Shown: positions 18,343-55,003 of the stretch, one piece after another
How the letters are laid out: every line of letters starts with the position of its first letter
Position numbering within the stretch: the first letter of the stretch is position 1
Position numbers and translations under genes: made by a program
NCBI GenBank assembly: GCA_022760335.1
Contig: JALEGE010000190.1
Coordinates: forward strand, 1-55,003
DNA length: 55,003 bases
From: Hyphomonadaceae bacterium
Lineage (GTDB): Bacteria > Pseudomonadota > Alphaproteobacteria > Caulobacterales > Hyphomonadaceae
Direction of reading: 5' to 3'
Notes under the pieces: generated by a model
Databases searched by the model: none
The model's input: only the letters and a program-made list of their open reading frames with translations
Told to the model about the DNA's origin: nothing

Positions 18343-18948
18343 ATGGCACGTCATAAGGGCGACGGTCCGATCATCATCAAGAAGTATGCAAACCGGCGCC
18401 TCTATGACACGTCGACATCGTCTTATGTGACGCTTGATCATCTGTCGGATCTGGTGCGCGCGGGCACGGATTTCGAAGTGCGCGATGCAAAGTCGGGCGA
18501 GGATCTTACGCGCTCGGTGCTGACCCAGATCATTTATGAAAACGAAACCAAGGGCGAAGGTGCGCTGCCACTGAACTTCCTGCGTCAGCTGATCGGTTTT
18601 TACGGCGGGGGCGCACAGTCCATGCTGCCGGCCTGGCTGGACATGTCGATGAACCAGTTCGCTGAAGCGCAGGAACGCTGGCGCTCGGCCATGGGCGGGG
18701 CAACGCCGATGGCGTTGTTCGAAAAACAGGCCAAGCGCAATATGGCCATGTTCGAGAATGCCATGCGGATGTTTAACCCGGCCATGGCGCCCGTCGACAC
18801 CAAGCTGGATGATGAAGATGAAGATGAGCCTGTGGACACCGCCACGGAAACTCCGGCCGAGCGCACTTTGAAACTCATGCAGGCCCAGATGGTTGAGATG
18901 CAGCGCCAACTGGAAGTTCTCTCCGGCAAGGACAGCAAGAGCAAGTAA
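18343..18948 (+). CDS. phaR: Polyhydroxyalkanoate synthesis repressor PhaR
   Basis: 201 residues. The N-terminal PHB/PHA accumulation DNA-binding domain begins IIIKKYANRRLYDTSTSSYV, the family signature. A second conserved segment, SVLTQIIYENETKGEGALPL, and the FLRQLIGFYGGGAQSMLP region follow. The C-terminus is acidic then coiled-coil-like (LKLMQAQMVEMQRQLEVLS). PhaR binds PHB granules; when granules are scarce it represses phasin and its own gene (family knowledge). GAGGAAG precedes the ATG. It is divergent from phaB, so the 180 bp between them can hold control sites for both. A dispersed palindromic repeat starts 9 bp after the stop. Confidence 0.94.
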   Translation: MARHKGDGPIIIKKYANRRLYDTSTSSYVTLDHLSDLVRAGTDFEVRDAKSGEDLTRSVLTQIIYENETKGEGALPLNFLRQLIGFYGGGAQSMLPAWLDMSMNQFAEAQERWRSAMGGATPMALFEKQAKRNMAMFENAMRMFNPAMAPVDTKLDDEDEDEPVDTATETPAERTLKLMQAQMVEMQRQLEVLSGKDSKSK

Positions 18949-18956
18949 GCTGGCTT

Positions 18957-19060
18957 TAGAGTGCCGGGCGAAAAAGTGGACTCCGGTTTTTTCGCAAAAC
19001 CGGCGCGACCACAAAAAACCTAGAGCATCGAGCGTTTCACATATAACGCCCGATGCTCTA
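18957..19060. repeat. Dispersed intergenic palindromic element, copy 1
   Basis: About 104 bp, nearly identical to 54909-55003. It contains two structures. The left one pairs GTGG with CCAC on the outside and CCGGTTTT with AAAACCGG inside; an alternative fold pairs GCGAAAAA with TTTTTCGC. The right one pairs TAGAGCATCG (19021-19030) with CGATGCTCTA (19051-19060), enclosing GCGTT and AACGC. The last three bases are the stop codon of the convergent 2OG-oxygenase gene. It resembles REP/RIME-like intergenic mosaic elements of alphaproteobacteria and could act as a two-way terminator between phaR and that gene. Confidence 0.85.
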
Positions 19061-19789
19061 GCCGAATTCTTCCGGTGCCCCGGCTCGGTACCATCCAGTA
19101 ACTGAAACGCGCGCGCCGCGGGCCTTTTCATTGACCGGGTCTACCCGGTGCGCCGTGGGCACAGCGAAAATTGATAGTGTATTGAAGCTGGGCACGAAGC
19201 GCTGTGTCACCTCGCCTGCCTCATCAAGGAAACTGAGTGTGCCCCCCCAGCTGGCTTTCCAAGGGTCAGCGAGACTGAGCGTATAAGCAAACAGCCGATT
19301 TTTGCCCGGCACATCGTCGTCATGTTCGTTTAACATGGCGCCAGTTCGAAAACGTGTGATTTGAGCATCGCAAAAGTCAGCGGGCAGGCCAGTAATCCTG
19401 TACAGGAGAGAAAGCATTTCCTGACTGTTCAGGGCCTCATAGACGTTGCGAATTTGCCCCGGCAGCGCGTCCGGCCCCCGTCCATGATAGATGTCGTGGA
19501 CGGGGTAGTTCTCGAAGAAATACTGAAACTGGTGCTGTGCCCGCTCTGCTGCTGCAAGGCGCAATTGGCGATACTGGCGCCCGGTCATGCTGGCGAGTTG
19601 GTTGGGCTGAATGTCGAAATGCTTGTCGCCCTCATTTAGGACAAGCCGCCAGTCGAGCGAGTCAACGGCTGCTCTGAGAGACCTAGCCGCCTTGGGATGC
19701 AGGATCTGCGTCACTTGAACCCGGCCTTCAGCATGAAACCGGGCATGCAGGGTGTCGAGTGAGTCGAGAATGGCCGAAGCGTTGATCAT
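19058..19789 (-). CDS. 2-oxoglutarate/Fe(II)-dependent oxygenase, prolyl-4-hydroxylase-like
   Basis: 243 residues. The iron-binding facial triad is visible as H156 and D158 (NEHDDDV) and H214 (PTAHRVDPV). R227 (GARVSVTGWYR) is placed to hold 2-oxoglutarate. The fold and the segment TLSFLDEAGEVTQRFVPSFNTLSIF resemble the Tpa1/OGFOD1-type prolyl hydroxylases, which in eukaryotes modify ribosomal protein uS12. The substrate here is not known. The TAG stop is donated by the end of the dispersed repeat (CTA at 19058-19060). The ATG at 19789 has no strong Shine-Dalgarno. Confidence 0.85.
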   Translation of the reverse strand: MINASAILDSLDTLHARFHAEGRVQVTQILHPKAARSLRAAVDSLDWRLVLNEGDKHFDIQPNQLASMTGRQYRQLRLAAAERAQHQFQYFFENYPVHDIYHGRGPDALPGQIRNVYEALNSQEMLSLLYRITGLPADFCDAQITRFRTGAMLNEHDDDVPGKNRLFAYTLSLADPWKASWGGTLSFLDEAGEVTQRFVPSFNTLSIFAVPTAHRVDPVNEKARGARVSVTGWYRAGAPEEFG

Positions 19790-53459: not shown

Positions 53460-54911
53460 ATGTTGCGTATTGCCCGCCCCCTTTGCCTGGCCGCTCTTCT
53501 TGCCCTTGTGCCCTTTGGGGCGGGGGCCCAGTCGCTGAGCGATCATGCCGAAGCGGTGGATATGAGCGATGCGCCGGAGAGCTTTTCCGAGCTGGCAAAG
53601 CGCCTGATGCCCGCGGTGGTGAACATCACCACGCGCCAGACTGTGGCGCCGCGTGGCCTGCCGGAATTTCCCGAGGGCTCGCCGCTGGAGCGGTTCAATC
53701 CCTTTTTCGGGCGCGATGAGGAAGGTTATCGCCAGGAAGGCTCGCTGGGCTCGGGCTTCGTGATTTCAGCTGATGGCTTGGTCATCACCAACAATCACGT
53801 CATCGAGAATGCCGATGAAATTACAGCGGTGTTTTCCGATGGCACGGAATTGCAGGCCGAACTGATCGGCACCGATCCGGAAACCGATGTTGCGGTTTTG
53901 CGTCTGATCAGCTCCGACCCATTGCCTTATGTGGAATTTGCGGACAGCGAGAGTACCGAAGTCGGCGATTGGGTGATGGCCATCGGCAATCCGTTCGGCT
54001 TCGGTGGCTCTGTTTCCGCAGGTATCATCTCTGCGCGCAACCGGAACACCGGCGGTCGTTATGATGATTTCCTGCAGACCGATGCCGCGATCAACCGGGG
54101 CAATTCCGGTGGTCCGCTGTTTAATCTGGCAGGCGAAGTTGTCGGTGTGAACACGGCGATCATCTCGCCTACGGGCGGTTCTGTGGGCATCGGCTTTGCC
54201 ATTCCGTCCAATATGGTTCGCCGGGTGGCAGACCAGCTTGTTGAGTTTGGCGAGTTGCGGCGCGGCTGGCTCGGCGTTTCTGTGCAGGGCATTGATGCCG
54301 ATATCGCTCGCGCCTATGGCGTCGACAGTGCTTCAGGCGTCATCATCACGCGCGTGGAAGAAGACGGCCCGGCCGCTGAGGCAGGCCTGGAAGTCGGCGA
54401 TCTCATCCGCACCTTCAATGGCGAGGACGTCAGTGATACGCGCGCGCTGACCCGAATTGTTGCTGATGCTGGGGTGGATGTTGCCGTGGATGTGGAACTA
54501 GTGCGTGACCGCCGTACGCGTATGCTGGAAGTCACCCTTGGCGAATTGGATACTGGGCGGGACGAGCCGGAAATCGAGGAAATCCCTGAGCTTTCGATCA
54601 CCGACAATGCACTGGGTGTGGAGTTTGTCACCCTGGATGAAACCACGCGCCGGCGCTATGGCATTCCCAGCGACATTCTCGGCGTGGTCGTCAATTCCGT
54701 CAGCCCGCGCGGGCCGAGCTTCGGCAAGCTGGAAAAGGGTGATGTGATCCTTGAGATGGGGTTTGATCCGGTTTCTTCCGTCGCCGATGCGGTAGAGGAA
54801 ATGGAAGAGGCCAACACGCGGCCTGAAACGCCGCTCCTGATTCAGGTCTGGCGTGGCGGGCGTGGTGGCTACAAGGTCTTCTTCTCGATCCAGCTGGATG
54901 CGACGAGCTAG
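53460..54911 (+). CDS. degP: Periplasmic serine protease, DegP/HtrA (Do) family
   Basis: 483 residues. A signal peptide (about 1-23, ending GAGAQS) is followed by a trypsin-like domain with triad H113 (TNNHVIE), D143 (ETDVAVL) and S216 (RGNSGGPL). Two PDZ domains follow (about 255-350 and 385-475). The enzyme degrades or refolds damaged envelope proteins. GGAG lies 12 bases upstream of the ATG. Its neighbours hflK and hflC also handle envelope quality control. The TAG stop lies at the edge of the second copy of the dispersed repeat. Confidence 0.95.
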   Translation: MLRIARPLCLAALLALVPFGAGAQSLSDHAEAVDMSDAPESFSELAKRLMPAVVNITTRQTVAPRGLPEFPEGSPLERFNPFFGRDEEGYRQEGSLGSGFVISADGLVITNNHVIENADEITAVFSDGTELQAELIGTDPETDVAVLRLISSDPLPYVEFADSESTEVGDWVMAIGNPFGFGGSVSAGIISARNRNTGGRYDDFLQTDAAINRGNSGGPLFNLAGEVVGVNTAIISPTGGSVGIGFAIPSNMVRRVADQLVEFGELRRGWLGVSVQGIDADIARAYGVDSASGVIITRVEEDGPAAEAGLEVGDLIRTFNGEDVSDTRALTRIVADAGVDVAVDVELVRDRRTRMLEVTLGELDTGRDEPEIEEIPELSITDNALGVEFVTLDETTRRRYGIPSDILGVVVNSVSPRGPSFGKLEKGDVILEMGFDPVSSVADAVEEMEEANTRPETPLLIQVWRGGRGGYKVFFSIQLDATS

Positions 54912-55003
54912 AGCGCCGGGCGAAAAAGTGGACTCCGGTTTTTCGCATGAGCCGGCGCGACCACAAAAAAACCTAGAGCATCGAGCGTTTCACATATAAC
55001 GCC
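54909..55003. repeat. Dispersed intergenic palindromic element, copy 2 (cut by the window edge)
   Basis: 95 bp matching 18957-19050 with few changes: a T/C near the start, one base fewer in the first T-run, AAAA replaced by a TGAG segment in the left stem, and one more A in the later A-run. The first three bases are the degP stop codon. The right palindrome arm lies beyond the window. The left CCGGTTTT/AAAACCGG stem of copy 1 is reduced to CCGG/CCGG here. Confidence 0.88.

Follow-up and report, generated by a model that had tools for sequence, protein, structure and literature searches.

A two-armed, CIR-like intergenic repeat of a Hyphomonadaceae genome lies at YTAR sites and shares stop codons with adjacent genes

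Introduction

The RIME (Rhizobium-specific intergenic mosaic elements), reportedly described by Osteras et al. in 1995, are said to be intergenic palindromic repeats of alphaproteobacteria. The Caulobacter CcrM-associated intergenic repeats (CIR; Chen and Shapiro 2003) are about 110 bp long and intergenic, and consist of two arms and a linker, with GANTC in a loop and TA at the ends (PMC2229807). A 2007 review gave the target duplication of CIR as '?', stated that more information was needed on their mobility and mentioned, as unpublished, multiple stops in all six frames (PMC2229807). In Brucella, Bru-RS1 and Bru-RS2 (Halling and Bricker 1994) are palindromic intergenic repeats of 103-105 bp (PMC2267715, PMC2266754), and the insertion sequence IS711, whose target is YTAR, has a reported preference for them (PMC2266754). 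ERIC, Correia and RUP are further short, non-autonomous repeats; they have TA ends and duplicate their target (PMC2229807).

Here we describe a repeat with a comparable architecture that occurs twice in the window analyzed, a stretch of 55,003 bp that is the whole of contig C120 of a draft genome (G000; 215 contigs, 3.5 Mb).

Results

The window copies and the number of copies in the genome

Two near-identical palindromic copies had been pointed out in the first-pass annotation of the window, and a DNA search of the 3.5-Mb genome confirmed them with E-values of 6e-50 (copy 1) and 4e-33 (copy 2). Copy 1 (18957..19060, plus strand) is 104 bp long, runs from TAG to CTA and matches the covariance model with 114 bits. 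Copy 2 (54909..55003, plus strand) is interrupted by the contig end after 95 of its 105 bp and continues for 10 bp on contig C211 (L007); it is 94% identical to copy 1 across the shared part. The same search found the element, full or partial, at 27 places, with fixed ends and different flanks, and excluded that the two window copies are alike by chance. Copies in this genome are 104-106 bp long. The number 27 was rejected as the copy number. Eight of the places are at contig ends, four of them with a left flank (L009, L012, L017, L018) and four with a right flank (L004-L007), and the contigs that end within a copy are C120, at copy 2, and C7, C36, C43, C109, C172, C183 and C211. The simplest reading is that the assembler broke four physical copies into these eight halves, which leaves about 23 copies in total. 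The overlap between C120 and C211 is identical along 95 bases, and the joining of both contigs at copy 2 is supported by synteny, since degP directly precedes the gene at the start of C211 in a genome of the same genus (G002).

Both window copies touch stop codons in the manner initially claimed. Gene calls, obtained with a home-made codon-usage finder, place degP at 53460..54911 (plus strand), and its TAG stop (54909..54911, plus strand) is formed by the left terminal TA of copy 2 and the first G of the element. The convergent neighbor across copy 2 is a gene on C211 that is SerB-like by sequence inspection, and the stops of both genes are supplied by the element. At copy 1, the last CTA (19058..19060, minus strand), made of the element's last C and terminal TA, is the TAG stop of a convergent gene (19058..19789, minus strand) that was named as a putative 2OG-oxygenase in the first-pass annotation. 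The gene upstream of copy 1 (18343..18948, plus strand), tentatively named PhaR-like by sequence inspection, has a TAA stop 8 bp before the element. No copy in the genome interrupts a called gene, and overlap is confined to stop codons.

Anatomy and folding of the element

The element consists of two hairpins and a linker, and its consensus in this genome is TAGAGCGCCGGGCGAAAAAGTGGACTCCGGTTTTTCGCATGAGCCGGCGCGACCACAAAAAACCTAGAGCATCGAGCGTTTCACATATAACGCCCGATGCTCTA(G). The left terminal TA of copy 1 (18957..18958), which is probably the duplicated target, is preceded by T; a pyrimidine occupies this position in 25/25 ends of this genome and in 26/27 ends of other genomes. Hairpin 1 (18961..19006, plus strand) has the outer stem GYGCCGG/CCGGCGC and the inner stem GCGAAAAA/TTTTTCGC, as indicated by folding and by pair counts for helices 1-3, and its loop includes GACTC (18979..18983), a GANTC sequence, i.e., a CcrM methylation site. 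The linker GACCACAAAAAACC (19007..19020) contains an A-run; read on the minus strand, this is a T-run 3' of hairpin 2. Hairpin 2 (19021..19060, plus strand), the right half of the element, is formed by TAGAGCATCG...CGATGCTCTA and is followed on the minus strand by GGTTTTTT in a terminator-like arrangement. When compared to shuffled sequences, the element is far more stable, with z = -6.4 and -5.9 on the two strands.

In four divergent copies (L021-L024) and in copies from other genomes, hairpin 2 is altered on both sides (GC to UA, GC to AU, UA to AU). These are the compensatory changes that the first-pass annotation had proposed to look for. Double-sided changes were found at six hairpin-2 pairs, whereas slid controls had them at one or two, and pairing holds in 95.7% of cells, although the relatedness of the sequences limits what covariation shuffles prove. 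Relative to the consensus, copy 1 has GTGCC in place of GCGCC in the left stem, CGCAAAACCGG in place of CGCATGAGCCGG on the loop side, and homopolymers of different length, in agreement with the initial description, in which the changes were placed in the left stem and the homopolymers. The right palindrome had been considered unchanged, which could not be seen in the window, where copy 2 stops 10 bases short; once completed from C211, the arm has a single C-to-T change (CGCCTGATGC).

GANTC is present at all but three of the 27 places (the exceptions are L023, L024 and L027), and six out of seven groups in the comparison keep the GA-TC frame with a variable middle base (GACTC, GAGTC, GAATC). 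It is absent from 11/11 scored copies of genome G044, and the four copies of genome G464 that were inspected have GAAAC or GAGAC instead. Since these copies are numerous and do without it, GANTC is dispensable for spread.

Empty sites and target sequence

A DNA search of the same-genus genome G002 with the element gave zero matches. A query made of the joined flanks aligns continuously to G002 across several insertion points. Six junctions (L015, L002, L025, L023, L021 and the degP-serB junction of copy 2) are empty and contiguous in G002, with 71-81% identity. Each one has a single TA, located inside a TAG stop, and the protein C-termini end at the same residue as in G000. At L015, L025, L023 and L021 the TAG of the left gene in G002 is exactly where the element starts in G000, and at L002 and copy 2 the stop TAG of the right-hand gene (CTA) is at the insertion point. 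The coincidence of the G002 TAG stops and the aligned C-termini indicates that the stops at these junctions predate the element and survived its insertion. At the copy 2 locus, the degP stop in G002 is TGA, approximately 10 bases upstream of CTAG, and about 10 bp present in G002 are missing from G000; this stretch would have been either already lost in the ancestor of G000 or removed with the insertion. The comparison was less clean at copy 1 (L001), where G002 has TCA rather than TA, and the junctions at L022 were not clean.

Of the left ends scored, 51 of 52 have a pyrimidine (C/T) ahead of the TA, and of the right ends scored, 50 of 50 have a purine (G/A) following it. The target is then YTAR. 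As for a TA-inserting MITE, filled and empty sites give six clean single-TA junctions, from which we infer that the TA is duplicated upon insertion; this is favored as the simplest reading, an element that carries its own TA being not strictly distinguishable from it.

Stop-codon sharing and convergent bias

In 12 of the 19 internal copies in G000 (L001, L002, L008, L013, L015, L016, L019, L021, L022, L023, L025, L026) a called gene next to the element uses its terminal TAG or CTA as stop codon; the right end of L025 is truncated, and its left TAG is the one counted. At least three of the split copies also share a stop, for an overall count of at least 15 of about 23, which answers a question on distance to stop codons raised in the first-pass annotation. 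As background, 444 kb of the genome were inspected. Outside gene interiors, 90 of 362 YTAG/CTAR sites (24.9%) were on stop codons, and for any TA the value was 9.5%. The excess over 24.9% has P = 5e-4 for 12/19 and about 5e-5 for 15/23; copies within one genome share descent, yet each site is a separate insertion. The availability of YTAG as the sole cause of stop sharing was rejected, as it accounts for 25%, not 65%. In addition, 13 of 16 scorable copies have convergent flanks, as compared to 14.5% of tolerated YTAG/CTAR sites (P about 5e-9). The case of only two copies with no positional bias, considered in the first-pass annotation as one that would speak against the element, does not agree with 27 places, about 23 copies and a strong bias. 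In the right flank of L013, the copy meets the stop codon of what by eye resembles an IS6-type transposase gene.

Genome G464, which belongs to another family, gave similar results. Twelve of 20 scored copies share a stop, 11 of them strictly (L172 has a TGA beside the element end), and 12 of 19 are located between convergent genes. Stop sharing and convergent bias are thus replicated in a second family. Stops are shared by 5/9 copies in G452 and by 1/6 in G478, where the copies have decayed ends. A search of open-licence papers found none describing repeats that share stop codons.

Spread and candidate mobilizers

The exact core pattern is rare, being present in 3 of the 385 genomes searched in the class, against 0 for a control pattern. 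A related covariance model was matched over its full length in 38 of the 120 genomes searched in the order, which belong to 18 of its 29 genera, with a maximum of 33 copies. Short palindromic repeats of this kind are present in many alphaproteobacterial genomes. Sister species often have no copies, a patchy distribution as is the case for mobile elements. Methylocapsa aurea has a variant with different outer stems, and relatives also occur in Alphaproteobacteria MAGs. In G058, related repeats are arranged head to tail with 113-bp spacing in arrays of three or two units (L048, L050). An Rfam search gave zero families above their own thresholds; RF02600 (Brucella sRNA CI27) aligns to both hairpins in 18949-19104 with E = 0.008 and 21.3 bits, compared to a threshold of 59.8 bits. 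The annotated sRNA CI27 may itself be a copy of a related repeat.

Profile searches of G000 with PF13340 and PF01609 gave no match, and no IS5-type transposase was detectable. The PF13358 search found one degraded IS630-type relic (L099:1406-1843), the ends of which are not shared with the element. No autonomous partner with the element's ends was found in G000. Searches with the left-end pattern returned only the element with 0-1 mismatches and no clear excess over a control pattern with 2-3 mismatches, and a plasmid search produced only weak matches in Martelella and Terrarubrum. Three other genomes include elements with a PF13340 transposase, which we take to be the IS427-like group, with TA duplications at YTAR. 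These elements adjoin covariance-model repeats exactly at the terminal TA in G464 (L199:1415-2371), G285 (L201:1407-2348) and G044 (L204:878-1813), i.e., in three of the four cases with clear ends; the scores of the abutted repeats are modest (34, 34 and 19 bits, respectively, the last with E = 0.0085). This abutment may indicate that repeat ends are landing sites for the insertion sequences, that the repeats are moved in trans, or both. The IS427-like elements have ends (GGGTCTGT..., GGCCCTGT...) unlike those of the element, which is therefore not a simple internal deletion of them. IS427-like insertion sequences are the leading, still unproven, candidate mobilizer.

Discussion

We propose, with a probability of about 0.78, that the element is a non-autonomous, mobile, MITE-like repeat of the two-armed alphaproteobacterial group that includes CIR, and that it inserts at YTAR and regenerates stops. 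Transposition, for which an IS5/IS427-type transposase is the best candidate enzyme, would account for what sequence comparison established on the repeat family, its filled and empty sites, its YTAR flanks and its shared stops, next to the convergent bias and the covariation. The element would insert at YTAR and, in the simplest case, duplicate the TA in the middle of this target; its mobile body starts with G and ends with C. After landing in the TA of a stop codon, TA+G would be read as TAG by the left gene and C+TA as CTA (a minus-strand TAG) by the right gene. With a body that begins and ends in this way, insertion at gene ends would keep the stop codon and leave the protein unchanged. Copies persist mostly where two genes converge, since an insertion there leaves both promoters and the coding sequence intact. 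Copies at these locations may double as extra terminators, hairpin 2 and the T-run being similar to an intrinsic terminator for the right gene.

It is conceivable, albeit doubtful, that the element is instead kept mainly for such a function, as a domesticated bidirectional terminator or 3'-end insulator between convergent genes that provides one hairpin per transcript. The convergent bias exceeds what target sites explain, hairpin 2 is preserved by compensatory changes, and on the minus strand of one copy (L003) GTTTTTTG comes after a 17-pair hairpin 2, which together look like a canonical terminator. However, the plus strand has no T-run after either hairpin, and other lineages have linkers without a T-run (CTCTTCTCAACAATAG, CAAATCAATAGGCTAG). 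Furthermore, G002 does without the element at the junctions examined, and at L002 an ordinary-looking hairpin precedes the insertion point in both genomes. The absence of the sites from the sister genome also weighs against a regulatory DNA or RNA element, dedicated to control by CcrM methylation at the conserved GANTC or belonging to a small-RNA family. A CcrM-like RAMA protein is encoded in G000, the GA-TC frame persists with a changing middle base in 6/7 groups, and the CI27 model aligns hairpin by hairpin, but numerous copies in G044 and the four inspected G464 copies do without GANTC and the Rfam score is below its threshold, so a regulatory role is improbable.

In other bacteria, palindromic extragenic repeats are associated with RAYT transposases. 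A REP-like repeat moved by such an enzyme (Y1), acting on single-stranded hairpins, would be palindromic, intergenic and multicopy as the element is. The element is, however, longer and two-armed, and the constant YTAR target, the TA on both sides and the clean junctions suit a DDE-type enzyme better, which makes this route very unlikely. Under the preferred reading, a mobile repeat that inserts at YTAR, a broader proposal can be made, although we regard it as speculative: CIR-like repeats could be stop-codon-regenerating parasites moved in trans by IS427/IS711-type transposases with which they have the YTAR target and TA duplication in common. Selection would have favored their G...C termini because these make an insertion harmless to both genes, whether it hits a TAG stop, a TAA stop or the CTAG of two overlapping convergent TAG stops.

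While the type of element was already known, filled and empty sites, the YTAR target, regenerated stops, a bias toward convergent genes that holds in two families, and a type of transposase as candidate are new here. The contact with stop codons noted in the first-pass annotation appears to reflect the YTAR insertion target, as judged from the empty sites in the sister genome. Filled and empty sites thus supply a target rule, explain the contact and point to a testable transposase type. An element of this kind would spread without damaging genes, the stop being rebuilt from its own first or last base, and stops, 3' UTRs, predicted terminators and some annotated small RNAs in such genomes may come from a mobile repeat.

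Compared to the systems known, the element is short, non-autonomous and TA-ended like ERIC, Correia and RUP; those carry terminal inverted repeats and fold from one end to the other, whereas the element has two separate arms. It resembles RIME, by description and not by sequence, in being intergenic, palindromic and alphaproteobacterial. The likeness to Bru-RS is in length, palindromic form and intergenic position and in the neighboring insertion sequences, IS711 (YTAR target) preferring Bru-RS and IS427-like elements adjoining the repeats described here; the sequence link is indirect, through the sub-threshold alignment to RF02600, which is not equated with Bru-RS. The element matches the CIR of Caulobacter and Brucella in several traits. 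The element, at 104-106 bp, is multicopy, alphaproteobacterial and strictly intergenic in G000, has two inverted-repeat arms joined by a linker and TA at both termini, and carries GANTC in the hairpin-1 loop at most places in G000, the motif being absent in G044 and the four inspected G464 copies. It differs in having stop-free frames (two in copy 1 and one in copy 2), although stops in all frames are a reported rather than a defining property of CIR, and in the empty sites, YTAR target and stop sharing seen here, the target duplication of CIR being given as '?' (PMC2229807). The assignment to alphaproteobacterial intergenic mosaic-type elements in the first-pass annotation is then supported, since the architecture fits the CIR family as described (PMC2229807). 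Compared with CIR by description, not through the CIR1-4 sequences, the element is a new member of the two-armed CIR-like group.
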